Assembly: GCF_037055355.1 (NCBI RefSeq)
Contig: NZ_CP146350.1
Coordinates: 2,131,001-2,195,000, forward strand
Origin: Streptomyces sp. DG1A-41
Lineage (GTDB): Bacteria > Actinomycetota > Actinomycetes > Streptomycetales > Streptomycetaceae
Length of the DNA stretch: 64,000 nucleotides
Direction: 5' to 3'
In this document: positions 34,504-58,773 of the stretch, one piece after another
Numbering within the stretch: the stretch's first letter is position 1
How the letters are laid out: each line of letters begins with the position of its first letter
Made by a program: the position numbers and the translations under genes
Notes under the pieces: model-generated
The model's input: the letters and a program-made list of their open reading frames with translations, nothing else
Told to the model about the DNA's origin: nothing
Databases searched by the model: none

Positions 34504-35391
34504 GTGGCGAACGACGGGCCGGTCGAGCACGGCTACCCGCATCTGGAGACGGTGCGGGCCGCCATCACGGCGCTGTACAAGCGGCTGTCGTACGACACGA
34601 TCCAGACGTTCGCGACCAGTGTGGTCCCCGCCGACGTGGCGTTCTGCGACACCGACGACCTGTATCTGGGGGCGCAGCGCGTGGCGCGTGAGCTGGTGCG
34701 GCACTACCGGCTGCCGGACGCCCGGCTGATCGTGAGCTTCCGGGAGATGCGGCACGCGGCGAACGTCGAGCTCGCGGCCGGGCCGGAGTACTTCGTGGAG
34801 CTGAACGACCGGTTCCGTACGCATCGGCGGGACATCGGGGCGGCCCTGGCGCACGAGGTGATGCATGTGTACCTGCACCGCCTCGGCCTGTCCTTCCCGG
34901 GCGTGCGCGACAACGAGATCCTGACGGACACGGCGACGACGTATCTGGGCGCGGGCTGGCTGCTGCTGGACGCGTACCGGGAGGATGGGGCGTCGTCCCA
35001 GAAGCTGGGGTATCTCACGCCGGAGGAGTTCGGGTACGTGCTGGCCAAGCGCGCGCTGGTCTTCGGGGAGGACCCGTCGGTGTGGTTCACCAGTCCGCAG
35101 GCGTACACGGCGTATGTGAAGGGGAGGGAGCTGGCCCGTCGCGATGAGCAGCAGCCGCCGTTGACCGCGGCGGGGTGGGCGGGGCGGCGGCGGTACGCGC
35201 GCGATCGACGGCATGCGTCGGCCGGGCCGCCGCAGCCGGGTGTGCGGTACTCGTTCACTCCCGACGGGGGTGGGCGGTTGCGGGTGTCGTTTCCGTGTCC
35301 GACCTGTCATCAGCGGATCAGGGTGCCGGTGCGGGGGCGGGTCCGGGCGCGGTGTGCGTTGTGCCGGAGCGTGTTGGAGTGCGACACGTAG
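34504..35391 (+). CDS. Putative zinc metalloprotein with HExxH motif and zinc ribbon
   Basis: A 295-residue protein of unknown function. The central part has AHEVMHVYLHRLG, an HExxH metal motif (His117, Glu118, His121), with acidic residues 16-25 further on in NEILTDTATTYLG that could be the third ligand, as in gluzincins. The C-terminus has CPTC and CALC about 20 residues apart, a zinc ribbon. No signal peptide is present, so a cytoplasmic metal-dependent peptidase or maturation factor is possible. The GTG at 34504 follows GGGGGTGAGG. It flanks the steroid-type cluster but points away from any obvious operon partner. Confidence 0.75.
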   Translation: MANDGPVEHGYPHLETVRAAITALYKRLSYDTIQTFATSVVPADVAFCDTDDLYLGAQRVARELVRHYRLPDARLIVSFREMRHAANVELAAGPEYFVELNDRFRTHRRDIGAALAHEVMHVYLHRLGLSFPGVRDNEILTDTATTYLGAGWLLLDAYREDGASSQKLGYLTPEEFGYVLAKRALVFGEDPSVWFTSPQAYTAYVKGRELARRDEQQPPLTAAGWAGRRRYARDRRHASAGPPQPGVRYSFTPDGGGRLRVSFPCPTCHQRIRVPVRGRVRARCALCRSVLECDT

Positions 35392-35432: not shown

Positions 35433-36362
35433 CTACGCCCCGTACACGCGCCCGGGATCGACCGCCTCCGCCAGGAGTTTCCGCGCCGCCTCCCCCGCCT
35501 CCGCCGGGGCCCACCGCTCGCCCTTGTCCAGGCTCGGGCCCGGGCGCCAGCCCTCCATCACCGTGATCCGGCCGCCCTCCGCCTCGAAGACCCGGCCCGT
35601 CACCCCCGCGCTCGCGGCCGAGCCGAGCCAGACGACCAGGGGGGAGACGTTCTCCGGGGCCATCGCGTCGAAGCCCGAGTCGGGTGCCGCCATGGTGTCG
35701 GCGAAGGCGCGCTCCGTCATGCGGGTCCGGGCGGCGGGGGCGATCGCGTTGACCTGGACGCCGTAGCGGCGCAGTTCGGCCGCCGCAACCAGGGTCAGGG
35801 CGACGATCCCGGCCTTGGCGGCGCTGTAGTTGCCCTGGCCGACCGAGCCCAGCAGGCCCGCGCCGCTGCTCGTGTTGACGATCCGGGCTTCGGGCGGGCG
35901 GCCCGCCTTGGCCTCGGACCGCCAGTGTGCGGCGGCGTGCCGCAGGGGCAGGAAGTGGCCCTTGAGGTGGACGCGTACGACGGCCTCGAAGTCGTCCTCG
36001 TCGAGGTTGACGAGCATCCGGTCGCGCAGGAAGCCCGCGTTGTTGACGAGCGTGTCGAGCCTGCCGTACGTCTCCAGGGCCGTCCGGACGAGGGAGGCGG
36101 CGCCCTCGGTGGTGGCGATGTCGCCGCCGTGCGGCACCGCCTCGCCGCCCGCCGCGCGGATCTCCTCGGCGACGCGGGCGGCCGGGCTGCGGGGTCCGGG
36201 GCCGGGCGTCCCGTCGGCTCCGGGGGTGCCGTCGAGGCCGACGCCGAGGTCGTTGACGACGAGCCGCGCGCCCTCGGCGGCGAACGCGAGGGCGTGGGCG
36301 CGGCCGAGCCCGCGGCCCGCGCCGGTGACGACGACGACCCGCCCGTCGCAGATTCCGCTCAT
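35433..36362 (-). CDS. SDR oxidoreductase, Rv3548c-like (steroid-ring cluster)
   Basis: A 309-residue short-chain dehydrogenase/reductase. The NAD(P) site is VVVTGAGRGLGRAHALAF, followed by NNAG and the catalytic Ser and YSAAK. Position, strand and length match Rv3548c of the M. tuberculosis KstR2 regulon (about 304 residues). It has the extended N-terminal loop and C-terminal region seen in MaoC-type multifunctional SDRs. The exact step in HIP degradation is not settled. The start ATG at 36362 is 18 bp after the upstream SDR gene, so both are read from the divergent promoter near 37200. Confidence 0.88.
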   Translation of the reverse strand: MSGICDGRVVVVTGAGRGLGRAHALAFAAEGARLVVNDLGVGLDGTPGADGTPGPGPRSPAARVAEEIRAAGGEAVPHGGDIATTEGAASLVRTALETYGRLDTLVNNAGFLRDRMLVNLDEDDFEAVVRVHLKGHFLPLRHAAAHWRSEAKAGRPPEARIVNTSSGAGLLGSVGQGNYSAAKAGIVALTLVAAAELRRYGVQVNAIAPAARTRMTERAFADTMAAPDSGFDAMAPENVSPLVVWLGSAASAGVTGRVFEAEGGRITVMEGWRPGPSLDKGERWAPAEAGEAARKLLAEAVDPGRVYGA

Positions 36363-36380
36363 CTCGGGTGTCCTTTCATC

Positions 36381-37193
36381 TCAGGTCCCCTTGTTCGCGG
36401 TCGAGGCGTCGTTCGTGGTCGAAGCGTCGTCCGCAGTCGAGACGTCGTTCACGGTCGAGACGTCGTTCACGGTCGAGGCGTCCAGGAACGCGGGGCGCTC
36501 CCCGCCCCCGTGGACGAGCAGACTCGCCCCGCTGATGTAGGCGGCGGCGTCCGAGGCGAGGAAGACCGCGGCCCGGCCGACGTCGGACGGCTCGGCGAGA
36601 CGGCCGAGCGGGACGGTGCGGGCGACGGCGGCGACGCCGTCCTGGTCGCCGTAGTGGAGGTGGGACAGTTCGGTGCGGACCATGCCGGCGACGAGGGTGT
36701 TGACCCGGATGTCGGGCGCCCACTCCACGGCCATCGAGCGGGCGAGGTTCTCCAGGCCCGCCTTGGCGGCGCCATAGGCGGCGGTCCCCGGGGAGGGGCG
36801 GCCTCCGCTGACGCTGCCGATCATGACGATGGAGCCCCTGGCCCGCCGGAGGTGCTCGTACGCGGCGAGGGACACGGTCAGCGGAGCCACGAGGTTGAGC
36901 TCCACCACGCGCGCGTGCCGGTCGGCGCCGGCGTGGGTGAGCGGGCGGTGGGGGCCTCCGCCCGCGTTGTTGACGAGGACGTCCAGCCGGGGCAGCTCGC
37001 CGCACAGGCGCCGGACGGCCTCGGCGTCCCGGACGTCCAGCGGCAGGAACTCCGTTCCGGGCACCGGCACTTCCGGCGGCCGACGGGCACAGACCACGAC
37101 CTCGGCGCCCGCCCGCACGAAGGCACGCGCGATGCCGGCACCGACGCCCCGGGTCCCGCCCGTGACGACGGCGACCTTCCCGTCCAGCTCCAT
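36381..37193 (-). CDS. SDR oxidoreductase, Rv3549c-like, with hexapeptide-repeat tail
   Basis: A 270-residue short-chain dehydrogenase/reductase with cofactor motif VVTGGTRGVGAGIARAF, NNAGGG, a Ser in IGSVSGG and the catalytic YGAAK. It occupies the place of Rv3549c in the mycobacterial HIP cluster. After the normal end of the fold (about residue 238) it carries an unusual tail of five DASTVN-type hexapeptides. The ATG at 37193 lies just inside a palindromic operator region, so the gene is probably repressed by the KstR2-like regulator. Substrate unproven; a steroid-ring intermediate is inferred from context. Confidence 0.87.
   Translation of the reverse strand: MELDGKVAVVTGGTRGVGAGIARAFVRAGAEVVVCARRPPEVPVPGTEFLPLDVRDAEAVRRLCGELPRLDVLVNNAGGGPHRPLTHAGADRHARVVELNLVAPLTVSLAAYEHLRRARGSIVMIGSVSGGRPSPGTAAYGAAKAGLENLARSMAVEWAPDIRVNTLVAGMVRTELSHLHYGDQDGVAAVARTVPLGRLAEPSDVGRAAVFLASDAAAYISGASLLVHGGGERPAFLDASTVNDVSTVNDVSTADDASTTNDASTANKGT
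36399..36488. repeat. Five 18-bp tandem units in the SDR C-terminal coding region
   Basis: Imperfect 18-bp units such as GGTCGAGACGTCGTTCAC repeat five times in phase with the reading frame and encode the hexapeptide D-(A/V)-S-T-x-(N/D). Two neighbouring units are identical over at least 17 bp. Confidence 0.85.
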
Positions 37194-37199
37194 TCACTG

Positions 37200-37236
37200 C
37201 TACCTTCCACCTAACAAACGTTTGGTGGAAAGGTAG
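37200..37236. promoter_or_regulatory. KstR2-like operator in divergent SDR/echA20 promoter
   Basis: The 14-mer AACAAACGTTTGGT at 37213-37226 agrees with 8 of the 10 fixed positions of the KstR2 motif AnCAAGnnCTTGnT. It sits within a larger imperfect inverted repeat, CTACCTTCCACC (37200-37211) against GGTGGAAAGGTAG (37224-37236). It lies only 7 bp from one start codon and 12 bp from the other, ideal for repressing both directions. Confidence 0.65.
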
Positions 37237-37247
37237 CTGATGCGGCC

Positions 37248-37991
37248 ATGGGTGTCTCCACCTCGTGCGGAGAAAAGGGCATAGCCGTCGTCACGGTCGA
37301 CTTCCCGCCGGTGAACGCCCTGCCGGTGGCCGGCTGGTTCGCCCTGGCCGACGCGATGCGCGCGGCCGGGCGCGGCCCGGAGGTGCGGTGCGTGGTGCTG
37401 ACGGCCGAGGGGCGCGGGTTCAACGCGGGCGTGGACATCAAGGAGTTGCAGAAGGATGGGAACAGTGCGCTGATCGGCGCCAACCACGCCTGCGCGGAGG
37501 CCTTCGCCGCGGTGTACGACTGCGCCGTGCCGGTCGTGGCGGCGGTGCACGGTTTCTGCCTGGGCGGCGGTATCGGGCTGGTGGGCAACGCGGACGTGAT
37601 CGTGGCGAGCGAGGACGCCGTCTTCGGGCTGCCCGAGCTGGACCGGGGCGCGCTGGGCGCGGCCACCCATCTGGCCCGGCTGGTCCCCCAGCACCTGATG
37701 CGCGCCCTGTATTACACCTCGCGCACGGCGACCGCGGCCGAGTTGCACGCGCACGGCTCGGTGTGGCGGGTGGTGCCGCGCGGCGAACTGCGCCCGGCCG
37801 CCCTGGAACTGGCCCGCGAGATCGCCGCCAAGGACGGGCAGCTGTTGCGCCTGGCCAAGGCCGCCCTCAACGGCATCGATCCGGTCGACGTGCGCCGCAG
37901 CTACCGCTTCGAGCAGGGCTTCACCTTCGAGGCGGGTCTCAGCGGGGTGGGCGCGCGGGTGCGCGGCACCTTCGGCAAGGGGGGAGCGTGA
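37248..37991 (+). CDS. echA20: EchA20-like CoA-thioester ring D hydrolase
   Basis: A 247-residue crotonase-fold protein. It resembles M. tuberculosis EchA20 strongly: PPVNALP near the start, the oxyanion-hole blocks GRGFNAGVDIKE and HGFCLGGGIGLVGN, and RLVPQHLMR and YRFEQGFTFE later. In the HIP pathway EchA20 opens ring D hydrolytically in a methyl-dioxo-indene-carboxyl-CoA intermediate. Like EchA20, and unlike ordinary enoyl-CoA hydratases, it belongs to the hydrolase type. First gene of a four-gene operon (echA20-ipdA-ipdB-ipdC); its stop overlaps the ipdA start by one base. No strong ribosome binding site precedes the ATG at 37248, so translation may be near-leaderless. Confidence 0.88.
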   Translation: MGVSTSCGEKGIAVVTVDFPPVNALPVAGWFALADAMRAAGRGPEVRCVVLTAEGRGFNAGVDIKELQKDGNSALIGANHACAEAFAAVYDCAVPVVAAVHGFCLGGGIGLVGNADVIVASEDAVFGLPELDRGALGAATHLARLVPQHLMRALYYTSRTATAAELHAHGSVWRVVPRGELRPAALELAREIAAKDGQLLRLAKAALNGIDPVDVRRSYRFEQGFTFEAGLSGVGARVRGTFGKGGA

Positions 37992-38827
37992 TGAGGGACA
38001 AGACGATGACGGCCGACGAGGCCGTGTCCCGACTGTCCAGCGGCATGACCCTCGGCATCGGCGGCTGGGGCTCGCGCCGCAAGCCGATGGCCCTGGTGAG
38101 AGCACTGCTCCGGTCCCGTATCACCGATCTCACGGTCGTCTCGTACGGCGGCCCGGACGTCGGCATGCTGGCCGCCGCCGGGCGGATCCGGAAGCTGGTC
38201 ACGGCCTTCGTCACCCTCGACTCGATCCCCCTGGAGCCGCACTACCGCGCGGCCCGCGAGCGTGGCGCCTTCGCGCTGACGGAGATCGACGAGGCGATGT
38301 TCCTGTGGGGCCTGCAAGCGGCGGCGAACCGGCTGCCGTTCCTGCCGGTGCGGGCCGGCCTCGGCTCGGACGTGATGCGGGTCAACCCCGATTTACGGAC
38401 GGTCACTTCGCCCTACGAGGACGGGGAGACGTTCGTGGCGATGCCCGCCCTGCGGCTCGACGCGGCCCTGGTGCACATGAACCGCGCCGACCGGCTGGGC
38501 AACGGCCAGTACCTGGGCCCGGACCCGTACTTCGACGACCTGTTCTGCGAGGCGGCGGACACGGCGTACGTCAGCTGCGAACGGATCGTCGACACGGCCG
38601 AGCTGACGAAGGCGGCGGCGCCGCAGACCCTGCTGGTCAAGCGGCACACGGTGACGGGCGTCGTGGAGGCCCCGCACGGGGCGCACTTCACGTCCTGCGC
38701 GCCCGACTACGGCCGGGACGAGGCCTTCCAGAAGACGTACGCGACGACACCCTGGCCGGAGTTCGCGGCCCGGTTCCTCGCCGAGGACGAGCAGGCGTAC
38801 CAGTCGGCCGTCGGGGAGGGGACATGA
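37991..38827 (+). CDS. ipdA: IpdA-like subunit of ring C hydrolase IpdAB; contains a TTA codon
   Basis: A 278-residue class I CoA-transferase-fold protein matching IpdA (Rv3551): WGSRRKPMALVRALLRS, TVVSYGGPDVGML, GLQAAANRLPFLPVRAGLG and PDYGRDEAFQ. IpdAB is not a transferase but hydrolyses the last carbocyclic ring in COCHEA-CoA. Acidic residues Glu98 to Glu101 (TEIDEAM) correspond to the region of the essential IpdA Glu. Codon 135 is TTA (38393-38395), a rare codon in Streptomyces that needs the bldA tRNA. Start ATG at 37991 in a TGATG junction; GGGGAG lies just upstream. Confidence 0.92.
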   Translation: MRDKTMTADEAVSRLSSGMTLGIGGWGSRRKPMALVRALLRSRITDLTVVSYGGPDVGMLAAAGRIRKLVTAFVTLDSIPLEPHYRAARERGAFALTEIDEAMFLWGLQAAANRLPFLPVRAGLGSDVMRVNPDLRTVTSPYEDGETFVAMPALRLDAALVHMNRADRLGNGQYLGPDPYFDDLFCEAADTAYVSCERIVDTAELTKAAAPQTLLVKRHTVTGVVEAPHGAHFTSCAPDYGRDEAFQKTYATTPWPEFAARFLAEDEQAYQSAVGEGT

Positions 38828-39543
38828 CCGGGGCCACCCGCGCGGAGTACTGCGTGATCGCGTGCGCCGAGGCCTGGCGGGGCGACGGCGAGGTGCTCGC
38901 GAGCCCCATGGGGCTGATCCCCTCCCTCGGGGCCCGGCTCGCCCGGCTCACCTTCGCGCCGGACCTGCTGCTGACCGACGGCGAGGCGCTGCTGGTCCGC
39001 CCGGACGGGACGACGGAGGGCTGGCTGCCGTACCGGCAGCATCTGGCCCTGGTCATGGGCGGCCGGCGGCACGTGATGATGGGCGCGAGCCAGATCGACC
39101 GGTTCGGCAACCAGAACATCTCGTGCATCGGCGACTGGGAGCGGCCGAGGCGGCAGCTGCTCGGGGTGCGCGGCGCGCCGGTCAACACCCTCAACCATCC
39201 GACCAGTTACTGGATCCCGAGGCATTCCCGGCGGGTCTTCGTCGAGCGGGTCGACATGGTCTGCGGCGTCGGGTACGACCACGCGGCCGGCGCGTGTCAC
39301 CACCGCATCCCGCGGGTCGTCTCCGACCTGGGTGTCTTCGACTTCGTCACCCCCGACCACTCGATGCGGCTGGCCTCGCTGCACCCGGGTGTCACGGCGG
39401 AGCAGGTCAGGGAGGCGACGGGCTGTGAACTGACCGTCCCGGACGAGGTGCCGCCGACCCGTGAGCCGACCGCGGAGGAGCTCCGGCTGATCCGCGAGGT
39501 CGTCGACCCGGCCGGCACTCGGACCAGGGAGGTCGCCTCGTGA
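38824..39543 (+). CDS. ipdB: IpdB-like subunit of ring C hydrolase IpdAB
   Basis: A 239-residue partner of IpdA, matching Rv3552: LASPMGLIPSLGARLARLTF, LLLTDGEA, GRRHVMMGASQIDRFGNQNIS, LNHPTSYW, SDLGVFDF and SLHPGVT. Together with IpdA it would open ring C to give a linear CoA thioester. The ATG at 38824 overlaps the ipdA stop (ATGA), which favours equal synthesis of the two subunits, with GAGGGG just upstream. Confidence 0.92.
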   Translation: MTGATRAEYCVIACAEAWRGDGEVLASPMGLIPSLGARLARLTFAPDLLLTDGEALLVRPDGTTEGWLPYRQHLALVMGGRRHVMMGASQIDRFGNQNISCIGDWERPRRQLLGVRGAPVNTLNHPTSYWIPRHSRRVFVERVDMVCGVGYDHAAGACHHRIPRVVSDLGVFDFVTPDHSMRLASLHPGVTAEQVREATGCELTVPDEVPPTREPTAEELRLIREVVDPAGTRTREVAS

Positions 39544-40592
39544 TGGAGACGGCGCTGACCCGGCTGACCGGCGTCCGCCATCCCCTCGTGCAGACCGGGA
39601 TGGGCTGGGTGGCGGGCCCGCGCCTGGTCTCCGCCACGGCGAACGCGGGCGCTCTCGGCATCCTGGCCTCGGCGACGATGACGCTCGACCGGTTGCGCGC
39701 GGCCGTCCGGGAGGTCCGGGCCCGTACCGACGCGCCGTTCGGTGTGAACCTGCGCGCCGACGCGGCGGACGCCGGCGACCGCGTGCGGATCCTGATCGAG
39801 GAGGGTGTCCGGGTCGCCTCCTTCGCCCTGGCCCCCTCCCGGGAGCTGATCGGCGAGCTCAAGGAGGCCGGTGTGGTCGTCATGCCGACCGTGGGGGCGC
39901 GGCGGCACGCCGAGAAGGTCGCCGGCTGGGGCGCGGACGCGGTGCTCGTGCAGGGCGCGGAGGGCGGCGGACACACCGGCGAGGTGGCCACGACGGTGCT
40001 GCTGCCGCAGGTCGTCGACGCCGTGGACATACCGGTCGTGGCGGCGGGCGGCTTCTTCGACGGGCGGGGCCTGGTCGCGGCGCTGGCCTATGGTGCGGCG
40101 GGCGTCGCCATGGGCACGCGGTTCCTGCTCACCTCGGACTCGACCGTGCCCGGGGCGGTGAAGGCGCGGTATCTGGCGGCGACGGTGCGGGATGTGACGG
40201 TCACCAGGGCGGTGGACGGGCTGCCTCACCGCATGCTGCGGACGGAACTGGTCGACGCGCTGGAGCGGTCGGGCCGGGTGACCGGCGTCCTCCGGGCGGT
40301 CCGCAGGGCGGCGGGCTACCGGAAGCTGTCCGGCACGAGCTGGCGCCGCATGCTCCGGGACGGCCGCGCGTTCAGACACGGCAAGGACCTGACCTGGAGC
40401 CAGGTCCTGCTCGCCGCGAACACCCCGATGCTGCTCAAGGCGTCCATGGTGGACGGCCGTACGGATCTGGGGGTGATGACGTCCGGGCAGGTCGCCGGAG
40501 TGATCGACGACCTGCCCTCGTGCGCGGAGCTGGTGGAACGGATCATGAAGGAGGCCGAGGACACCCGTCGGCGTCTCACAGCCTCTCGATGA
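39540..40592 (+). CDS. ipdC: IpdC-like flavin-dependent oxidoreductase (NPD/2-nitropropane dioxygenase fold)
   Basis: A 350-residue FMN-dependent TIM-barrel protein of the nitronate monooxygenase superfamily, matching IpdC (Rv3553): HPLVQTGMGWVAGPRLVSAT, FGVNLRADAADAGDRV, VQGAEGGGHTGEVAT and AAGGFFDGRGLVAALAYGAA. In HIP catabolism IpdC acts on a dioxo-indane carboxyl-CoA intermediate before ring opening. The GTG at 39540 overlaps the ipdB stop and has AGGGAGG 7 bp upstream; ATG at 39543 is an alternative. Its 3' end overlaps the convergent thiolase gene by 17 bp. The mycobacterial fdxB that follows ipdC is missing here. Confidence 0.9.
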   Translation: MMETALTRLTGVRHPLVQTGMGWVAGPRLVSATANAGALGILASATMTLDRLRAAVREVRARTDAPFGVNLRADAADAGDRVRILIEEGVRVASFALAPSRELIGELKEAGVVVMPTVGARRHAEKVAGWGADAVLVQGAEGGGHTGEVATTVLLPQVVDAVDIPVVAAGGFFDGRGLVAALAYGAAGVAMGTRFLLTSDSTVPGAVKARYLAATVRDVTVTRAVDGLPHRMLRTELVDALERSGRVTGVLRAVRRAAGYRKLSGTSWRRMLRDGRAFRHGKDLTWSQVLLAANTPMLLKASMVDGRTDLGVMTSGQVAGVIDDLPSCAELVERIMKEAEDTRRRLTASR

Positions 40593-41733
40593 TCGTCGCA
40601 TTGGCCTGTCCGCCGCCCTCGCACATGGTCTGGAGGCCGAACCGGCCGCCGGTGCGTTCCAGTTCGTGCAGCAGGGTCGTCATCAGCTTCACGCCGGTCG
40701 CGCCGAGCGGATGGCCCAGGGCGATGGCACCGCCGTTGACGTTGACCTTCTCCGGGTCCGCGCCCGTCTCCTTGAGCCAGGCCAGGACGACCGGGGCGAA
40801 GGCCTCGTTGATCTCGACGAGGTCGATGTCGCCGATAATCATGCCGGTCTTCTTCAGGGCGTGGGCGGTGGCCGGGATGGGAGCGGTGAGCATGCGGATC
40901 GGGTCCTCGCCGCGCACCGAGAGATGGTGCACACGCGCGCGTGGGGTGAGCCCGTGTTCGCGCACCGCCCGCTCGGAGGCCAGCAGCATCGCCGCCGCCC
41001 CGTCGGAGACCTGCGAGGAACAGGCGGCGGTGATCGTGCCGCCGTCGAGGACCGGCTTGAGGCCGGCCATCTTCTCCAGGGAGGTGTCCCGGCGCGGACC
41101 CTCGTCGGCGGTGACGTCCCCGTACGGCACGGTCTCGCGGTCGAAGCGGCCCTCGTCGATCGCCCGGACCGCCCGCCGATGGGACCGCAGGGCGAACTCC
41201 TCCTGGTCGCGCCGGCTGATCCCCCATGTGGCGGCGATCATCTCGGCGCCCGCGAACTGGTTGACGGGCTTGTCCCCGTACCGCGCCCGCCAGCCCGTAC
41301 TGCCCGCGAACGGGCCCTGGGTCAGCCCGAGCGGCTCGGCGGCCTGCCGGGTGGCGAAGGCAATGGGGATCATCGACATGTTCTGCACCCCGCCTGCGAC
41401 CACCAGGTCCTGAGTGCCGGACAGCACGGCCTGCGCCGCGAAGTGCACGGCCTGCTGCGAGGAACCGCACTGCCGGTCGACGGTCACGCCCGGCACCTCC
41501 TCGGGCAGCCCGGCCGCCAGCCAGCAGGTCCGCGCGATGTCCCCGGCCTGCGGCCCCACGGCGTCCAGACAGCCGAGGACGACGTCCTCCACGGCGGCCG
41601 GATCGACGCCCGAGCGGCTCATCAGCTCCTTCAGCACATGTGCGCCGAGGTCGGCCGGATGGACCGCGCTCAGTCCTCCGCCGCGCCGCCCGGCGGGCGT
41701 GCGGACCGCTTCGACGATGTAGGCCTCGGCCAT
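40576..41733 (-). CDS. fadA6: FadA6-like acetyl-CoA acetyltransferase (thiolase)
   Basis: A 385-residue thiolase with nucleophile Cys in VDRQCGSSQQAVHFA, His in GHPLGATG and the second Cys in MCEGGGQANA. Equivalent to FadA6 (Rv3556c), which removes acetyl-CoA in the final beta-oxidation steps after ring opening. The ATG at 41733 follows GGGAG by 6 bp. It is the third gene of the ipdF-kstR2-fadA6 operon, 23 bp after the regulator gene. An upstream extension of the frame runs into the regulator and is not coding. Confidence 0.92.
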   Translation of the reverse strand: MAEAYIVEAVRTPAGRRGGGLSAVHPADLGAHVLKELMSRSGVDPAAVEDVVLGCLDAVGPQAGDIARTCWLAAGLPEEVPGVTVDRQCGSSQQAVHFAAQAVLSGTQDLVVAGGVQNMSMIPIAFATRQAAEPLGLTQGPFAGSTGWRARYGDKPVNQFAGAEMIAATWGISRRDQEEFALRSHRRAVRAIDEGRFDRETVPYGDVTADEGPRRDTSLEKMAGLKPVLDGGTITAACSSQVSDGAAAMLLASERAVREHGLTPRARVHHLSVRGEDPIRMLTAPIPATAHALKKTGMIIGDIDLVEINEAFAPVVLAWLKETGADPEKVNVNGGAIALGHPLGATGVKLMTTLLHELERTGGRFGLQTMCEGGGQANATIIERL

Positions 41734-41756
41734 GGCAACTCCCTCGTAGGAAAGGG

Positions 41757-42380
41757 CTATTCGCGTACGGCGATCCCGTCCAGCACCATCGACAGGTACT
41801 GCCGGGCGATCTCGTCCGGGCTGTGCCGGCCGCCCGGCCGGTACCAGGACGCGGCCACCCACACCGTGTCGCGCACGAACCGGTAGGTGAGCCGGACGTC
41901 CAGGTCGGCCCGGAAGGCCCGCTCGGCGACGCCGCGCTCCAGCGTGGACAGCCACGCCTTCTCGAATCTGCGCTGCGACTCGGCGAGGAACGCGAACCGC
42001 TCCTGCGCCACGAGCTGCTTGCTCTCCTTCTGGTAGATCGCGACGGCCGCGCGATGCCGGTCGATCTCCCGGAACGACTCGGTGACCAGGGCCTGAAGCG
42101 TCTCGCGCGGGCCGAGTCCGGCGCCCAGCACGGCGTCGTAGCCGTCCCAGAGCTCGTCGAGGAAGGTGCGCAGGATCTCTTCCAGCATCGACTCCTTGGA
42201 GTCGAAGTGGTAGTAGAGGCTGCCCGCGAGCATCCCCGCGTGGTCCGCGATCTTGCGGACGGTGGTGGCGTTGTAGCCCTGCTCGGCGAAGACCTCGGCG
42301 GCGGTGCCGAGGAGTTCGCGACGACGGGCGGGGGCTGCGGTCACCTGGGGTTTCTTCTTCGTAGGAGGCACAGGTCCCAT
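41757..42380 (-). CDS. kstR2: TetR-family repressor, KstR2-like
   Basis: A 207-residue TetR regulator. The N-terminal helix-turn-helix is EVFAEQGYNATTVRKIADHAG followed by GSLYYHFDSKE. The ligand domain carries VAIYQKESKQLV and YRFVRDTVWVAASWYRPGG, both strikingly close to M. tuberculosis KstR2, which releases DNA on binding HIP-CoA. The two palindromes in this cluster are its likely targets, including its own operon promoter at 43183-43206. Start ATG 42380, 7 bp after ipdF. Confidence 0.88.
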   Translation of the reverse strand: MGPVPPTKKKPQVTAAPARRRELLGTAAEVFAEQGYNATTVRKIADHAGMLAGSLYYHFDSKESMLEEILRTFLDELWDGYDAVLGAGLGPRETLQALVTESFREIDRHRAAVAIYQKESKQLVAQERFAFLAESQRRFEKAWLSTLERGVAERAFRADLDVRLTYRFVRDTVWVAASWYRPGGRHSPDEIARQYLSMVLDGIAVRE

Positions 42381-42387
42381 TGTCGTC

Positions 42388-43173
42388 CTAGGGGTGCCTG
42401 CTGCTGACGGACACCACTTCCCCCGTCATGTACGAGGAGTAGCCGGAGGCCAGGAACACGATCACGTTGGCCACCTCCCAGGGCTCGGCGTACCGCCCGT
42501 AGGCCTCGCGGGCGGTCAGCTCGGCGAGCAGCTCGGGCGTGGTCACCTTCACCAGGTGCGGATGCAGGGCGAGGCTGGGCGCGACGGCGTTGACGCGCAC
42601 CCCGTACTCGGCCGCCTCGACGGCCGCGCACCGGGTCAGCGCCATCACGCCCGCCTTCGCGGCGGCGTAGTGGGCCTGCCCGGCCTGGGCGCGCCAGCCC
42701 ATGACGGAGGCGTTGTTGACGATCACCCCGCCGCTCTCCCGCATGCGGCGGAGCGCGGCCCGCACGCACCGGAACGTGCCGTTCAGCGTGACGTCCAGGA
42801 CGCGGGACCACTGGTCGTCGGTCATGTCGACGAGGTCCGCGGTGCCGCCGAGACCGGCGTTGTTGACCACGACGTCGAGCCGTCCGTGTTCCCGTACGGC
42901 CGTGTCGAAGAGGGCGCGTACCTGCGTCTCGTCTGTGACGTCGCAGGGCACCGCGGCGACCGATGCCGCGCCGAACTCGCCGGCCAGCTGCGCCTCGTGG
43001 TCCTTGAGCCGCCGTACGTGCGCGTCGCTGATCAGGACGCGTGCGCCCTCCTCCAGGAAGCGGCGCGCGGTGGACCCGCCGATCCCCGCGCCGGCCGCGG
43101 CGGTGAGGACGGCGGTCCGCCCCTTCAGCACGCCGTGGCCGGGCACGTACGACGGACTCTCGACGTCTGTCAT
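42388..43173 (-). CDS. ipdF: IpdF-like SDR reductase
   Basis: A 261-residue short-chain dehydrogenase/reductase matching IpdF (Rv3559c): LKGRTAVLTAAAGAGIGGST as cofactor site, NNAGLGG, and the catalytic YAAAK. IpdF oxidises the 5-hydroxyl of a hydroxy-HIC-CoA intermediate. The ATG at 43173 is the first gene of its operon and sits 10 bp from the operator palindrome. In M. tuberculosis the equivalent gene is close to, but not fused in an operon with, kstR2. Confidence 0.88.
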   Translation of the reverse strand: MTDVESPSYVPGHGVLKGRTAVLTAAAGAGIGGSTARRFLEEGARVLISDAHVRRLKDHEAQLAGEFGAASVAAVPCDVTDETQVRALFDTAVREHGRLDVVVNNAGLGGTADLVDMTDDQWSRVLDVTLNGTFRCVRAALRRMRESGGVIVNNASVMGWRAQAGQAHYAAAKAGVMALTRCAAVEAAEYGVRVNAVAPSLALHPHLVKVTTPELLAELTAREAYGRYAEPWEVANVIVFLASGYSSYMTGEVVSVSSRHP

Positions 43174-43182
43174 GGGCTCACG

Positions 43183-43206
43183 CTAACCTACCAAACACTT
43201 GTTAGG
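43183..43206. promoter_or_regulatory. KstR2-like operator in divergent ipdF/fadE30 promoter
   Basis: ACCAAACACTTGTT at 43190-43203 agrees with 9 of the 10 fixed positions of the KstR2 motif AnCAAGnnCTTGnT and is flanked by CTAAC and TTAGG. It lies between the start codons of ipdF (10 bp) and fadE30 (15 bp). Confidence 0.7.
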
Positions 43207-43220
43207 GAAGGAGGGTGGTC

Positions 43221-44360
43221 GTGGATCTCGCGTTCTCACCGGCCGACGAGGAGTTCCGCACCGAGGTGCGGGAGTGGCTGCACGCGCGTGTGCCGCGCGA
43301 GCCCCTGCCCTCCCTGGAGACGGCGGAGGGCTTCGCGGCCCACCGCGCCTGGGAGGCGGAGCTGGCCGCGGAGGGCTGGTCGGTGGTCGACTGGCCGGCG
43401 GAGTACGGCGGGCGGGACGCGGGGCTCCTGCGATGGCTGCTCTTCGAGGAGGAGTACTGGGCGGCGGGCGCCCCGGGGCGCGTCGGGCAGAACGGCATCC
43501 ATCTGCTCGCCCCGACCCTCTTCGCCCACGGCACCGGGGAGCAGCGGGCCCGGGTGCTGCCCCCGATGGCCTCCGGAGAGGTGATCTGGGCTCAGGCCTG
43601 GTCGGAGCCCGAGGCCGGTTCGGACCTGGCGTCCCTGCGGGCGAGGGCCGTGCGCACGGATGGCGGCTGGCTCCTCAGCGGCCAGAAGACCTGGTCCTCG
43701 CGTGCCGCGTTCGCCGACCGTGCGTTCGGCCTGTTCCGCAGCGACCCGGACACGGCCAAGCCCCACCAGGGCCTGACGTACCTCATGTTCGACCTGCGCG
43801 CACCGGGCGTCACGGTCCGCCCGATCGCCCGCCTCGACGGCAAGCCGGCGTTCGCGGAGCTGTTCCTGGACGAGGTCTTCGTGCCCGACGAGGACGTGAT
43901 CGGCGAACCCGGCCAGGGCTGGCGGATCGCGATGGCGACGGCCGGTGACGAACGCGGGCTGATGCTCCGCTCCCCGGGCCGTTTCCTCGCTGCCGCGCGC
44001 CGGCTGGAGGGGCTGTGGCGGGAGCGGGGCGGTCCGGTGTCCGAGCGGGACCGGGTGGCCGACGCTCTGATGGGCGCCCGCGCCTACCAGCTCTTCACGT
44101 ACGCGGCCGCCTCCCGCTTCATCGACGGCGAAACGGTCGGCCCGGAATCGAGCCTGAACAAGGTCTTCTGGTCCGAACTGGACATCGCGCTGCACGAGAC
44201 GGCCCTCGATCTCCTCGGCCCGGAGGGCGAGCCGGCCGACACCGACTGGGCGGAGCGGTACGTCTTCGCACTCGCCGGCCCGATCTACGCGGGCACGAAC
44301 GAGATCCAGCGCGACATCATCGCCGAGCGCCTGCTCGGCCTGCCGAAGGGACGCCGCTGA
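43221..44360 (+). CDS. fadE30: FadE30-like acyl-CoA dehydrogenase
   Basis: A 379-residue acyl-CoA dehydrogenase with the FAD/substrate blocks AQAWSEPEAGSDLASL, DGGWLLSGQKTWSS and the C-terminal YAGTNEIQRDIIAERLLG. The Glu that precedes this GT in medium-chain enzymes is Ala here, as in several steroid-type FadE proteins. In the HIP pathway FadE30 oxidises the propionyl side-chain or ring CoA thioester. The GTG at 43221 is chosen because AGGAGG lies 6 bp upstream. FadE31 is of similar length and cannot be excluded without alignment. Coupled to the next gene (TGATG). Confidence 0.82.
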   Translation: MDLAFSPADEEFRTEVREWLHARVPREPLPSLETAEGFAAHRAWEAELAAEGWSVVDWPAEYGGRDAGLLRWLLFEEEYWAAGAPGRVGQNGIHLLAPTLFAHGTGEQRARVLPPMASGEVIWAQAWSEPEAGSDLASLRARAVRTDGGWLLSGQKTWSSRAAFADRAFGLFRSDPDTAKPHQGLTYLMFDLRAPGVTVRPIARLDGKPAFAELFLDEVFVPDEDVIGEPGQGWRIAMATAGDERGLMLRSPGRFLAAARRLEGLWRERGGPVSERDRVADALMGARAYQLFTYAAASRFIDGETVGPESSLNKVFWSELDIALHETALDLLGPEGEPADTDWAERYVFALAGPIYAGTNEIQRDIIAERLLGLPKGRR

Positions 44361-45325
44361 TGCGTTTCCTCCTCGACGCCGAGCAGCGCGCCTTCGCCGC
44401 CTCGCTGGACGCCCTGCTGACGGCGGCGGGCACACCGGCGGTGGTGCGGGACTGGAGCCGGGGCGACCATACGAGCGGGCGGGCGCTGTGGTCCCGTATC
44501 GCGGAGGCCGGCGTGTTCGCGCCGGCGGTTCCACAGACGTACGAAGGCGGCCTGGGGCCGCGTCCGGTCGGACTGGCCGTCGCCTTCGTCGAGTTGGGCC
44601 GCCACGCGGTACCGGGCCCGCTGGTCGAGACGGTCACGGCGGCGGTGCTGCTCACCGGGGCCGACCCGGGTGTCGCCAAGCGGCTGCTGCCGGGGCTGGC
44701 GTCCGGGGAGACGATGGCGACGGTGGCACCCGCGGGCGGGTACGCCCTGGACGGCGACGCTGCCACCCTCCGGCTCTCCTGGGAGCCCGACGGCATCCGC
44801 CTCTCCCCCGGCCACGGTCCCGTCCGCCCCTCCCTCGACCCCGCCCGTCGCCTCACCCCCCTCGCCCCCGGCGGCGAGCTCCTCGACGCCCCCACCGGAC
44901 AGGCCCTCGCCTGGGCCCGTCTCGCCACCGCCGCCCAAGCCCTCGGGGTGGGCCTGGCACTCCTCGACAGAACCGTCGGATACGTCAGGCAACGCACCCA
45001 GTTCGGCGTCCCCGTCGGGTCGTTCCAGGCGGTCAAGCACCGGCTGGCCGACGCGAAGATCGCCCTGGAGTTCGCTCGCCCGCTGGTCTTCGGTGCCGCC
45101 CTGACGATGCGGCCGGCCGATGCCGCCGCCGCCAAGGCCGCCGCGTGCGAGGCGGCGTACACCACCGCCCGCACCGCGCTGCACCTGCACGGCGCGATCG
45201 GCTACACGGCGGAGTACGACCTGTCGCTATGGCTGACCAAGGCCCGGGCCCTGCGCACCGCCTGGGGCGATCCCCACGCGTGCCGGGCCCTGGTCGTCAG
45301 TGCGGCTGGTGATCGCCGCTGGTGA
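44360..45325 (+). CDS. Short acyl-CoA dehydrogenase-family subunit (FadE32/33-like)
   Basis: A 321-residue protein with the C-terminal acyl-CoA dehydrogenase helical domain (QRTQFGVPVGSFQAVKHRLAD, LHGAIGYTAEYDLSLWL) and a reduced N-terminal part. Short subunits of this size (FadE32, FadE33) pair with longer ones such as FadE31 in actinobacterial steroid heterotetramers, so it probably forms an alpha2beta2 enzyme with the upstream protein. A tract from about 44800 to 44950 is especially C-rich. The ATG overlaps the fadE30 stop by one base; the 3' end overlaps the cytochrome b gene by 29 bp. Confidence 0.82.
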   Translation: MRFLLDAEQRAFAASLDALLTAAGTPAVVRDWSRGDHTSGRALWSRIAEAGVFAPAVPQTYEGGLGPRPVGLAVAFVELGRHAVPGPLVETVTAAVLLTGADPGVAKRLLPGLASGETMATVAPAGGYALDGDAATLRLSWEPDGIRLSPGHGPVRPSLDPARRLTPLAPGGELLDAPTGQALAWARLATAAQALGVGLALLDRTVGYVRQRTQFGVPVGSFQAVKHRLADAKIALEFARPLVFGAALTMRPADAAAAKAAACEAAYTTARTALHLHGAIGYTAEYDLSLWLTKARALRTAWGDPHACRALVVSAAGDRRW

Positions 45326-46955
45326 TCTCCCGGTACTCCTCCACCGTCGGCTTCTCGATCCGCGCGTCCGGCCCGAACATCGCCTTCGCGAGCCGGGCAC
45401 GCAGCCGCTCGGACCGCTTGACCTTCCGGCGGACGCCCCCCGCGTCGACCTCGGGCCCCTCCTCGTACGGCGGGTTCTGCTCGTGCTGGGTGAGGGTGAA
45501 CAGCTCGGCCCGCGAGAGGGGCTCGTGCACCTCGATGTACTCGCCGTTCGGCAGCCGTTTGATGGTGCCGGTCTCCCTGCCGTGCAGCACCTTTGCGCGG
45601 TCGCGGCGCTGGAGGCCCATGCAGATCTTCTTCGTGACGATGAAGGCGACGACCGGCAGCACGAAGACGCCGATCCGCACGAACCAGGTGATCACGTTGA
45701 TGGACAGATGCAGATGCGTGGCCACGATGTCGTTGCCGCCGCCGATCAGCAGCACCGCGTACAGGGTCAGCCAGGCCACGCCCAGGCCGGTGCGCACGGG
45801 CGCGTTGCGCGGCCGGTCCAGGATGTGGTGCTCGCGTTTGTCGCCGGTGATCCACGCCTCGATGAAGGGATAGGCGCCGATGGCGAGCATGACCAGCGGG
45901 AAGAGCGCGAACGGGATGAACACGCCGAGGACCAGCGTGTGGCCCCACATGTTGATCTCCCATCCCGGCATCACCCGGATCAGCCCCTCGGAGAACCCGA
46001 GGTACCAGTCGGGCTGGGCGCCCGTGGTGACCAGGTCGGGGCGGTAGGGGCCGAAAGCCCACACGGGGTTGATCTGGGCGATCGCGCCCATGATGGTCAG
46101 AACGCCGAAGACGAGGAAGAAGAAGCCGCCCGCCTTGGCCATGTAGACCGGCAGGAAGGGCATCCCGACGACCGACCGCTCCTTGCGTCCGGGGCCCGGG
46201 AACTGGGTGTGCTTGTGGTAGAAGACCAGGATCAGATGGACGGTCACCAGGCCCAGCATGATCCCGGGCAGCAGCAGCACATGGACCGGGAAGAGGCGCG
46301 AGATGATGTCGTCGCCCGGGAACTCCCCGCCGAAGAGGAAGAACGCCACATACGTCCCGACGATCGGGATCGACAGGATCGCGCCGTGCGCGAAGCGCAG
46401 GCCGGTGCCGGACAGCAGGTCGTCCGGGAGGGAGTAGCCGGTCAGGCCGGTGATGATGCCGAGCATCAGCAGGGTCCAGCCGAAGACCCAGTTGAGCTCG
46501 CGGGGCTTGCGGAAGGCGCCGGTGAAGAACACCCGCATCATGTGCACCATCATGCCGGTGATGAAGACCAGCGCCGCCCAGTGGTGGACCTGCCGCATCA
46601 ACAGCCCGCCGCGCACGTCGAAGCTGATGTCCAGCGTGGACTCGAACGCCCTGGACATGAGCACGCCGTTGAGCTCCGTGTAGGACCCCTGGTAGACGAC
46701 CTCCTGCATGCTCGGCTCGAAGAACAGGGTGAGGTAGACACCGGTGAGGATCAGGACGATGAAGCTGTAGAGGGTGATCTCGCCCAGCATGAAGGACCAG
46801 TGGTCCGGGAAGACCTTGCGCATGTTGGCCTTGGCCAGCCCGTAGAGCCCGAGCCGCCCGTCCGCCCAGTCGGCGAGCTTCTCGCCCTTGCCGGCGGGAG
46901 GTCTCCTGCGAGCGGAAGCCGTCCCGTACACCCGTCGTGCGCCGTCGTCGCCCAT
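45297..46955 (-). CDS. Orphan cytochrome bc1 subunit b (QcrB-like)
   Basis: A 552-residue membrane protein with the eight-helix cytochrome b core. Heme-ligand histidines are in RQVHHWAALVF and RFAHGAILSIP and in the later helix with VTVHLILVFYHKH; the Qo-site PDWY motif occurs in GAQPDWYLG. The actinobacterial C-terminal cytoplasmic extension (about residue 430 on) is present. It resembles QcrB, which transfers electrons from menaquinol to heme c in the bcc-aa3 supercomplex, but qcrC, qcrA and ctaE are absent here, so it is a second, isolated copy. ATG at 46955 follows GGAGG by 9 bp. Confidence 0.9.
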   Translation of the reverse strand: MGDDGARRVYGTASARRRPPAGKGEKLADWADGRLGLYGLAKANMRKVFPDHWSFMLGEITLYSFIVLILTGVYLTLFFEPSMQEVVYQGSYTELNGVLMSRAFESTLDISFDVRGGLLMRQVHHWAALVFITGMMVHMMRVFFTGAFRKPRELNWVFGWTLLMLGIITGLTGYSLPDDLLSGTGLRFAHGAILSIPIVGTYVAFFLFGGEFPGDDIISRLFPVHVLLLPGIMLGLVTVHLILVFYHKHTQFPGPGRKERSVVGMPFLPVYMAKAGGFFFLVFGVLTIMGAIAQINPVWAFGPYRPDLVTTGAQPDWYLGFSEGLIRVMPGWEINMWGHTLVLGVFIPFALFPLVMLAIGAYPFIEAWITGDKREHHILDRPRNAPVRTGLGVAWLTLYAVLLIGGGNDIVATHLHLSINVITWFVRIGVFVLPVVAFIVTKKICMGLQRRDRAKVLHGRETGTIKRLPNGEYIEVHEPLSRAELFTLTQHEQNPPYEEGPEVDAGGVRRKVKRSERLRARLAKAMFGPDARIEKPTVEEYREITSGDHQPH

Positions 46956-47076
46956 ACGTCGTCGCCTCCCCGTGGCTCCTTCCCAGCGTGGCACGGCACG
47001 ACGGCGGTGCAAACGGGGCGCAGGGGCGGCTAGGCCAAGGGGCGGGCCGGTTAGGCCACGGGGGCGAGCAGATGGC

Positions 47077-56506: not shown

Positions 56507-57568
56507 ATGGCATCCATCGCCTGTATCCCCTCCGTCCCGGCGCCCGGGGACGCCGCCGAACTCCGCGCACGGGCCCGCGGCGCACTGCTCGGCCTGGCCG
56601 TCGGCGACGCGCTCGGGGCTCCGGCCGAGAACATGAAGCCCTCCGAGATCCGCGCGCGGTGGGGCCGTATCACCGGATACGTCGCCGAGCACCCCGCCGG
56701 CACGGACGACACCGAGTACGCGATCTTCTCCGGCCTCCTCCTGGCCCGGCACGGCTCGGCACTGACCCCCGCGCACGTGGAAGCGGCCTGGCATGAATGG
56801 ATCGCCGACCGCGACGAGGGCCCCTTCCGGGGCGCCGGCTTCAGCGAACGCGGCACCCTGGAGAACCTCCGCCGTGGCCTGGCGGCCCCCATCTCCGCCC
56901 AGCACCGGCACGCCTGGAGCGACGGTCTGGCCATGCGCGCGGCCCCCTTCGGGGTGTTCGCGCCCGGCCGCCCGGCGGAGGCGGCCCGGCTGGTGGCGAT
57001 CGACGGCTCGGTGAGCCATGACGGCGAGGGCATCTACGGCGGCCAGGCGGTGGCGGCGGGCGTGGCGGCGGCGATGGCGGGCGCCCAGCCGGTCGCGGTC
57101 GTGGCCGCCGCCCTCGCGGTCGTGCCCGACGACTCCTGGACGGCCCGCTGCCTGCGCCGCGCGGTGGCGGTGGCCCACCGCGGCGAACGCGCGGTCCGCT
57201 CCGCGGTCGTCATCGGCGGCTACCCCTGGACCGACCTGGCCCCCGAGGCGGTCGCCCTCGCCTTCGGCGCGTACGCGGCGGCCGACGGCGACTTCGGACA
57301 GTCCGTCCTGACGGCGGTGAACATGGGCCGCGACGCGGACACGACGGCGGCGGTCGCGGGCGCCCTGGCGGGCGCGACGCGGGGTGTGTCGGCGATCCCG
57401 AAGGCCTGGACGACCCCCATCGGCCCGGTCCGCGGCCGGTGCCTGCCGGCGATGGCGGGCTACCACGTACTGGACGTGGCGGACCTGCTGACACCGGCGG
57501 TACGCGACGAGGAGCCGGTGCCGACGGACTTCGCCCTGGCGGGCGACGGAACGGAGGCCCCCTCATGA
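56507..57568 (+). CDS. ADP-ribosylglycohydrolase family protein 1
   Basis: A 353-residue ARH/DraG-fold protein. GALLGLAVGDALGAPAE opens the fold, the first metal motif is GTDDTEYAIF (Thr66, Asp67, Asp68, Thr69), and the second is NMGRDADTTAAVAGALAG. All metal ligands typical of two-magnesium ARH enzymes are present, so hydrolase activity is likely, either on ADP-ribosylated protein or small ADP-ribose or nucleoside compounds. First of four paralogues; the next gene begins in its stop codon (ATGA). The ATG at 56507 has no strong ribosome binding site. Confidence 0.9.
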   Translation: MASIACIPSVPAPGDAAELRARARGALLGLAVGDALGAPAENMKPSEIRARWGRITGYVAEHPAGTDDTEYAIFSGLLLARHGSALTPAHVEAAWHEWIADRDEGPFRGAGFSERGTLENLRRGLAAPISAQHRHAWSDGLAMRAAPFGVFAPGRPAEAARLVAIDGSVSHDGEGIYGGQAVAAGVAAAMAGAQPVAVVAAALAVVPDDSWTARCLRRAVAVAHRGERAVRSAVVIGGYPWTDLAPEAVALAFGAYAAADGDFGQSVLTAVNMGRDADTTAAVAGALAGATRGVSAIPKAWTTPIGPVRGRCLPAMAGYHVLDVADLLTPAVRDEEPVPTDFALAGDGTEAPS

Positions 57569-58773
57569 CGCCGCACGAACCGGCAGCCGCCGACGGCGAA
57601 GTCGCCCCACGGGAGACCAGGACCCCTCGGGTGACAGTTGCGGGCGGTGCGCGGGTGGGAGACAAAAAGGCCGAAGGCCTCCTGCTCGGACTCGCCGCAG
57701 GGGACGCGGCAGGCTGGCCGGCGGCCCGCCACAGAGCCGCCCGCATGCCCGACTGGACCCGCCGCCTCACCCGCGAACTGGACACCTTCGCCGAGCACAA
57801 CGCCACGACCACCCTCCCCGTTCCCATCGCCCTGAACCAACCCCCCGAGCCCCTCCGCCTGGGCCCCTCCGACGACGCCGAATGGGCGGCCTTCGCCGCG
57901 GAAGCCCTCCTCCGAGCCGGCGACGACACCGCCTTCAACGACCTCAGCCGGGAACGCCGCACCCGAGCCGCGATCGACCTCACCTGGAACGCCATCGCCT
58001 GCGAGGTGGCCGCGGCAGCGGACCGCGCTCCGGAGATCGAGTCCGCCGTCCTCCCCCTGCGCGCCCGCATCTCCGTCCGCGCCGGCCTCGGCAACCTCGC
58101 CACCGGCCTGCGCCCGCCCGCCACCGGCCACGACAACCCCCACTACTTCGACGACGCGGCCTGCGTACGCGCCTGCGTCCTGGCCGTGGCCCACCCGGGC
58201 GACCCCCGACGCGCCGCCGACCTCGCCGAGTTCGACGCCCGCTACACCCAGGACGGCGACGGCGTCCACGGCGCCCGGGCGATGGCGGCGGCCCTCGCCC
58301 TCGCCCTGGCCGGCGCGGACGTCGACGCCTGCGTCACGGCGGCCCTCGCCGAACTCCCCGAGGAGACGGAGATCGGCCGCAACGCCCGGCACGCCCTGAA
58401 GCTCGCGGCCGACGCGGACAGCGCCTTCTCCCTGGTCCCGCCCCTGGAACACCAGATCGTCGACCACGTCTACAGCTACGGCATCGCCGCCGCCGAAACG
58501 GTCCCGGTCGCCCTAGCCCTGGCCACAGCGGCCCGCGGCCGCATCGCGGAGGCGGTCCCGGCGGCGGCCTGCCTGTCCCGCGTCGCGGACTCCGCCCCGG
58601 CCCTGGCGGGCGCCCTCACCGGCGCGCTGGGCGGCGGCGCCTCGATCCCGGCCTCCTGGCGGGAGACCTGCCGCACCCTCTCCGGCTGCGTCCTCCCCCG
58701 CCTCACCGGCACCGACCTCGTGGAACTCGCCGAACTCCTGGAAGCCGCACAACCGGCCCGCCCCGGTGGATGA
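57565..58773 (+). CDS. ADP-ribosylglycohydrolase family protein 2, degenerate metal site
   Basis: A 402-residue ARH paralogue. The N-terminal glycine block is GLLLGLAAGDAAGWPAAR, but the first metal motif reads PSDDAEWAAF and the second LSRVADSAPALAGALTGAL, in both cases without the full set of TDDT and DxDT/S ligands. It may be catalytically weak or have a scaffold or regulatory role. The ATG at 57565 overlaps the stop of the preceding gene, with GGAGGC 10 bp upstream, so both are coupled. Confidence 0.85.
   Translation: MTPHEPAAADGEVAPRETRTPRVTVAGGARVGDKKAEGLLLGLAAGDAAGWPAARHRAARMPDWTRRLTRELDTFAEHNATTTLPVPIALNQPPEPLRLGPSDDAEWAAFAAEALLRAGDDTAFNDLSRERRTRAAIDLTWNAIACEVAAAADRAPEIESAVLPLRARISVRAGLGNLATGLRPPATGHDNPHYFDDAACVRACVLAVAHPGDPRRAADLAEFDARYTQDGDGVHGARAMAAALALALAGADVDACVTAALAELPEETEIGRNARHALKLAADADSAFSLVPPLEHQIVDHVYSYGIAAAETVPVALALATAARGRIAEAVPAAACLSRVADSAPALAGALTGALGGGASIPASWRETCRTLSGCVLPRLTGTDLVELAELLEAAQPARPGG

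Follow-up and report, generated by a model that had tools for sequence, protein, structure and literature searches.

The eleven uninterrupted open reading frames (ORFs) that fill positions 35433-45325 of a 64,000-nucleotide stretch of the Streptomyces sp. DG1A-41 genome (contig NZ_CP146350.1, positions 2,131,001 to 2,195,000; here called the window) probably constitute a streptomycete KstR2 regulon, a common route for steroid remnants resembling HIP (rings C and D) that is uncoupled from full steroid degradation. Gene order is that of the mycobacterial KstR2 regulon (Rv3548c-Rv3564). This reading draws on what can be seen in the sequence, namely gene identities, operator-like sites, conservation, co-occurrence and the lack of detectable enzymes for rings A and B. 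Statements about cited papers refer, here and below, to excerpts of those papers.

Identities were taken against a mycobacterium-type reference genome (G428); its IpdB shares 96% identity with the Mycolicibacterium rhodesiae protein (L181), and its gene order agrees with that reported for M. tuberculosis in PMC5380842. Ten window proteins align in order with their reference counterparts at 46.6-69% identity, KstR2 being assessed separately. The original prediction of a KstR2-type cluster for rings C and D, syntenic with that of mycobacteria, is borne out by eleven orthologous genes in the same order. Its ten matches from Rv3548c to fadE30 hold as to order and for nine of the identities, the fadE30 label being the part that fell. 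IpdA, IpdB, IpdC and EchA20 are as recognisable as it had stated (51-69% identity), and so is KstR2, which is 46-50% identical to mycobacterial KstR2 (tblastn, for the six mycobacterial loci in which it was detected). Matches lie with solved IpdAB-type and KstR2 chains and not in unrelated families, and the gene order is mycobacterial and not alien. IpdA and IpdB of the window score 334 and 290 bits against solved IpdAB-type chains and 85 and 60 bits against glutaconate coenzyme A (CoA)-transferase. In the DGEA motif of IpdB a glycine stands at the place of the transferase glutamate (alignment with 6co6_B, position counted by hand); this residue corresponds to Gly57-beta, which replaces the CoA-transferase glutamate according to PMC5380842. 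The window KstR2 scores 232 bits with 2ibd and 194 bits with the KstR2 chains 4w97/4w1u, while the next-best solved chain gives 80 bits.

The gene that follows ipdF, called FadE30 in the original prediction, is instead FadE31. Against the reference proteins its product has 62.6% identity with FadE31 and 38.0% with FadE30, and in a 60-row maximum-likelihood tree with midpoint root it groups with mycobacterial FadE31 (100/98), apart from FadE30; the tree program cautioned that the long branches between the FadE31 and FadE30 groups are possibly misplaced. These identities and the tree rule out FadE30 for 43215-44360. Alignments shorter than 300 residues were excluded from the tree, and hence this genome's own remote FadE30-like gene (see below), whereas the remote FadE30-like protein of the near relative G009 was included. 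The short FadE said to come next is present and is now labelled FadE32 (46.6% identity), not FadE33 (34.1%). With the IpdE2/FadE33 model it scores 138.5 bits, compared with 136.7 for the reference FadE32 and 586.8 for the reference FadE33. The solved pair 6wy8/6wy9 was dropped as a guide to FadE labels, because its matches to the window FadEs are weak (126 and 80 bits).

In PMC8399759 the side-chain part of HIP degradation comprises FadD3, the dehydrogenase pair RS22390/RS22415 and RS22710, and the list in PMC5380842 has these loci as fadE33/fadE30 and Rv3548c, respectively; FadE30 and FadE33 are also named IpdE1 and IpdE2 (PMC8708139). In PMC8399759 the Rv3548c counterpart is entered as the hydroxyacyl-CoA dehydrogenase that acts in breakdown of the HIP side chain. 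The HIC part of the same paper consists of IpdC, IpdF, EchA20, IpdAB, FadA6, FadE31, FadE32 and a ScdN-type hydratase. The window holds this HIC part, no search being aimed at the hydratase, together with the Rv3548c counterpart, the orthologs of echA20, ipdC, ipdF, fadA6, fadE31 and fadE32 being clustered in one locus. From these assignments, the genes for opening rings D and C and for processing MOODA-CoA are predicted to be present. FadD3, FadE30/IpdE1 and FadE33/IpdE2 were not found among the locus ORFs with family models and identity to the reference; in mycobacteria fadE30 adjoins ipdF on the same strand. The lack of fadD3 had been foreseen, and the description as a complete-looking HIP cluster has to be given up in favour of a cluster for the HIC-CoA part.

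Comparison of the locus between Streptomyces genomes, a check proposed with the original prediction, led us to reject the suggestion of a strain-specific acquisition. The ipdB gene occurs in 277 of 392 Streptomyces genomes; the search gave 292 matches at E <= 1e-20, 15 of which (E 1e-21 to 1e-46) were removed on reading the table, and those retained have E 1e-81 or better. Forty loci were mapped, chosen non-randomly from the upper ipdB ranking on long contigs, with gene presence defined as a tblastn match. Order and strand are kept in 40/40, and all eleven genes were matched in 36/40, Rv3549c missing in the other four. The neighbours are frequently the same, namely the 34504-35391 protein in 37 of the 40 loci, chorismate mutase in 31, a TerF-like gene in 27, QcrB in 25 and PepN in 22, and the GC (guanine plus cytosine) content of the locus (0.72-0.74) is inside the window's own range. 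This suggests that the locus is old and has been inherited vertically within the genus, and was not acquired recently. In the phylum, IpdA matches were found in 25 of 198 genomes and in 15 of 147 genera.

The published KstR2 motif is AnCAAGnnCTTGnT (PMC3068626). Our search motif, ANCAARNNYTTGNT, admits A for G in one half and T for C in the other, and was given this relaxed form after both promoters had been viewed. It gave 2 matches in the window compared with 0.00 expected in shuffles, a count that is not blind since the motif is post hoc. In the whole genome (8.99 Mb) it occurs at four places, two of which are the two divergent promoters of the locus, and the other two fall within predicted ORFs. 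The comparison with a published probe is free of this post-hoc flaw: positions 43182-43211, which include operator 2, match the M. tuberculosis Rv3560c/Rv3561 probe at 24/30 bases, the best unrelated stretch of the window reaching 17/30, and this probe bound KstR2 in an electrophoretic mobility shift assay (PMC3068626). In 37/40 loci operator 1 is found upstream of echA20, no more than 150 bp away, and in 38/40 operator 2 is found no more than 150 bp from the fadE31 start. As kstR2 begins 7 bases after ipdF, operator 2 probably serves kstR2 too. Taken at face value, the locus encodes a KstR2 repressor accompanied by operator-like sites in both divergent promoters (Table 1).

Table 1. Genes and putative operators of the locus, in window positions. 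Identities are to the mycobacterial counterparts; loci are the 40 mapped Streptomyces loci.
Feature	Position	Strand	Evidence
Rv3548c-like short-chain dehydrogenase/reductase (SDR)	35433..36362	-	63% to mycobacterial Rv3548c-position protein; NF005861 above cut-off; tblastn match in 40/40 loci
Rv3549c-like SDR	36381..37193	-	54% to counterpart; NF005893 above cut-off; 36/40 loci
operator 1, KstR2-type, AACAAACGTTTGGT	37213..37226	.	divergent Rv3549c/echA20 promoter; rests on motif relaxed post hoc
echA20, ring-D hydrolase	37248..37991	+	63% to counterpart; NF005925 above cut-off; 40/40 loci
ipdA, COCHEA-CoA hydrolase alpha	37991..38827	+	334 bits to 6co6_A; 56% to mycobacterial IpdA
ipdB, COCHEA-CoA hydrolase beta	38824..39543	+	290 bits to 6co6_B; 51% to counterpart
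ipdC, 5-OH-HIC-CoA reductase	39540..40592	+	69% to counterpart; FabK-related, below FabK model cut-off
fadA6, thiolase	40576..41733	-	64% to counterpart; NF005865 above cut-off
kstR2, TetR repressor	41757..42380	-	232 bits to 2ibd; 194 bits to 4w97 KstR2; 40/40 loci
ipdF, 5-oxo-HIC-CoA oxidoreductase	42388..43173	-	62% to counterpart; NF005880 above cut-off
operator 2, KstR2-type, ACCAAACACTTGTT	43190..43203	.	divergent ipdF/fadE31 promoter
fadE31, acyl-CoA dehydrogenase	43215..44360	+	62.6% to FadE31, 38.0% to FadE30; tree 100/98
fadE32, acyl-CoA dehydrogenase (MOODA-CoA dehydrogenase per literature)	44360..45325	+	46.6% to FadE32, 34.1% to FadE33

Candidate entry enzymes were found 1.75-1.79 Mb from the window. 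They are a FadD3-family ligase at G000:C1:3921789-3923354 (G000 is the present genome; 54% identity, 785.6 bits with an equivalog cut-off of 657) and a FadE30-like gene at G000:C1:3966324-3967465. Both co-occur with ipdB among 61 genomes, where sets were read by eye from tables, limits were chosen post hoc and several matches are partial: FadD3 (at least 51% identity) and ipdB are found together in 42 genomes, ipdB only in 2, FadD3 only in 1 and neither in 16, and for FadE30 (at least 52%) the corresponding numbers are 43, 1, 1 and 16. The ipdB-positive genomes without FadD3 are G008 and G020 and the one without FadE30 is G032; the ipdB-negative G001 is a genome of 79% completeness. FadE30 is not in the locus here, nor in 39/40 mapped loci (tblastn). 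Among the 44 ipdB-positive genomes the FadE30 type is both in the locus and remote in 1, in the locus only in 6, remote only in 36 and neither in 1. All seven in-locus copies were mapped (G002, G004, G012, G015, G021, G025 and G041), and they lie between ipdF and operator 2 as in mycobacteria; remote copies were mapped directly in eight genomes (G000, G008, G009, G013, G020, G034, G049 and G059), and the others were assigned from coordinates and identity class. From this pattern it looks as if a remote relative has replaced the in-locus FadE30 gene. A further FadE pair, 36-39% identical to FadE33 and FadE30/31, is located near the remote FadE30-like gene (L129:11018-12957, that is G000:C1:3971018-3972957), and a similar pair was seen in the seven other remote loci mapped (L161, L163, L164, L167, L170, L172 and L174).

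The original prediction implied that the strain degrades whole steroids, which would require genes for rings A and B elsewhere in the genome. A KstD-like protein (55%) at C1:5389601-5391229 speaks for this, but no hsa gene was found within 60 kb around it, and an A/B pathway elsewhere in this genome was rejected at the thresholds used, as KshA (1e-15), HsaA (1e-80) and HsaC (1e-8 with a partial 206-residue query; 1e-40 with the family) were not found. The KshA and 206-residue HsaC searches of this genome ran without a positive control of their own; the KshA query detects KshA in L159 and L173 (tblastn). In the 14 named control genomes HsaA and HsaC had no match and IpdE2 none over its cut-off, and the positive controls are therefore the Streptomyces matches and the mycobacterial proteins. 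The same models find HsaA and HsaC in 40 and 38 other Streptomyces genomes. For HsaA, 94 of 392 genomes match at 1e-80 and only the 40 over cut-off were counted; all of these belong to the 277 ipdB-positive genomes (Fisher p 5e-7, shared ancestry ignored). For HsaC, 100 genomes match at 1e-40, none of them over the 450-bit cut-off, and the 38 with 329-387 bits were counted, all falling within the 40 HsaA genomes. Degradation of whole steroids by this strain therefore appears unsupported at these thresholds, and we regard it as very improbable. PMC4810484 counts as degraders genomes with at least 6 of 8 key enzymes, KshA and HsaC included, and reports 55 of 57 Streptomyces without the pathway, which does not conflict with our survey because a C/D part alone would go uncounted. 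The rarity of A/B genes, together with the absence of FadE30 from the locus in 39/40 mapped loci while it is kept at the mycobacterial position in other Streptomyces, could also point to a decaying remnant of a former steroid pathway; with all eleven genes in 36/40 loci, order and strand in 40/40 and conserved operators, this is scarcely credible. Two observations touch these genes: around the KstD-like gene (G000:C1:5389481-5391238, or L133:9481-11238) there are SDR-, thiolase- and ligase-like stretches, and paired adjacent HsaA-type genes, both over cut-off, occur in G076, G268, G291, G305, G307, G310, G318, G346, G371 and G386.

A rather unlikely but more substantial alternative is that the substrate is not HIP but an acid derived from a hydrindane or a terpenoid, which the remote FadD3/FadE30-like set would activate and shorten before it joins the HIC-CoA route. 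The remote proteins diverge from the mycobacterial ones (FadD3 51-53%, FadE30-like 54-57% identity, for loci aligned over full length), six remote FadE30-like proteins form a clade of their own beside FadE30 (joint clade 100/97), and Rv3548c-like, Ltp/thiolase-like and ChsH2-like genes are present in the remote region itself. Against it stand the conservation of KstR2 and operator 2 towards mycobacteria, the score of the remote ligase above the FadD3 equivalog cut-off, and a streptomycete cited in PMC5380842 as growing on HIP. Several observations nevertheless weigh against a KstR2 regulon for HIP-like remnants fed by the remote genes. G023 and G259 keep a separate FadD3-FadE33-FadE30 set beside A/B genes and G023 also carries the remote FadD3/FadE30 types; the remote set may therefore serve a compound other than HIP. 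No KstR2-type site was found in G000:C1:3900001-4000000. None of the 61 genomes has IpdE2/FadE33 over the NF050027 cut-off, but the FadE33-like gene in the A/B cluster of G023, at 188 bits, falls below that cut-off too. The co-occurrence tests ignore shared ancestry, and the FadD3 counted in G012 is near its own C/D locus and not remote. The remote FadE30-like gene of this genome (L129:6324-7465) aligns in two frames, which may reflect damage or a sequencing error; in the relative G009 (L161) its counterpart aligns in one. Within the window, the Rv3549c/Rv3550 24-mer has its top score (16/24) at operator 2 and not at operator 1. The probe comparison supports operator 2 only; operator 1 is backed by the relaxed motif and its conservation. 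It is also doubtful, though conceivable, that most Streptomyces keep the KstR2/Ipd pathway for an unrecognised hydrindane or terpenoid acid of soil, which the remote, divergent side-chain set would feed into the HIC-CoA route, and that full steroid degradation comes on top of this in roughly a tenth of the species.

For the KstR2 regulon that we favour, we infer the binding of KstR2, the reactions, the role of the remote genes and the scavenging of substrate. KstR2 would repress the Rv3549c/echA20 and ipdF/fadE31 divergent promoters via the two palindromic operators, and would be released by a substrate-derived CoA thioester (HIP-CoA in mycobacteria). The CoA ligase and the first acyl-CoA dehydrogenase, acting on the side chain, would be supplied by the unlinked region about 1.75-1.79 Mb away. 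IpdF and IpdC would then convert 5-OH-HIC-CoA into HIEC-CoA, EchA20 would hydrolyse ring D and IpdAB ring C, FadA6 would remove acetyl-CoA to leave MOODA-CoA, and FadE31-FadE32 would dehydrogenate the latter. Rings A and B would not be broken down by a 9,10-seco route in this strain, and HIP or a closely related compound that other organisms set free is therefore the most likely substrate.

The locus resembles the KstR2 regulon of mycobacteria and rhodococci (PMC5380842, PMC3068626) in its eleven orthologs, their order, the divergent promoters and the operators at the echA20 promoter and at the promoter preceding fadE31, a site that in mycobacteria precedes fadD3. Unlike that regulon, it is without fadD3, fadE30 and fadE33, no linked A/B genes were found, and no separate kstR2 operator was found. 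The operator core here is CAAA..TTTG or CAAA..CTTG, whereas it is CAAG..CTTG in mycobacteria and rhodococci. The separation of C/D from A/B genes is known from the split clusters of Amycolatopsis mediterranei and Thermomonospora curvata (PMC4810484); both of these have the A/B pathway, however, and none was found in this genome. Saccharopolyspora hirsuta likewise has a fadD3 ortholog outside the clusters as well as fadE31 and fadE32 orthologs (PMC8708139, PMC9782250), but in contrast to the present locus it has fadE30 adjoining ipdF, and it degrades cholesterol. In our literature search no title or abstract opening describing this locus in Streptomyces was found, which is weak evidence since most subscription papers lay outside the search. 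An uncoupled route for HIP-like remnants is in line with a report of 1977 by Hashimoto and Hayakawa, known by its citation in PMC5380842, that MOODA accumulated while a streptomycete (Streptomyces rubescens) grew on HIP. The CoA ester of MOODA is the one expected to arise after IpdAB and FadA6 and to precede FadE31-FadE32; according to PMC5380842 MOODA also builds up when fadE32 is mutated in M. smegmatis. The streptomycete of 1977 may have had A/B genes.

The immediate surroundings of the cluster contain other genes. At 45297-47012 (-) there is a cytochrome bc1 QcrB-type gene, found in 25/40 Streptomyces loci, which here shares 29 bases with the end of fadE32 in a tail-to-tail arrangement; its neighbours are fadE32 and a TerF-like gene and not QcrA/QcrC. 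On the other side, the ORF at 34504-35391 (+) encodes a conserved protein of 295 aa (amino acids) with no NCBIfam or Pfam match at 0.001, found beside the cluster in 37/40 loci (tblastn). Further away, at 56507-58773 (+), two overlapping consecutive ORFs both match ADP-ribosylglycohydrolase.

The degrader criterion of PMC4810484, with KshA and HsaC, would pass over genomes having the C/D part alone, and the genomes with ipdB (277/392) are about seven times as many as those passing the HsaA cut-off (40). If the locus is what we propose, a widespread soil genus consumes steroid remnants, the biochemical observation of 1977 gains candidate genes, and KstR2 and the HIC-CoA enzymes become open to study in a non-pathogenic setting. 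Most Streptomyces with the locus lack the A/B genes at the cut-offs used, and they may live on the half-digested remains of steroids left by other microbes.

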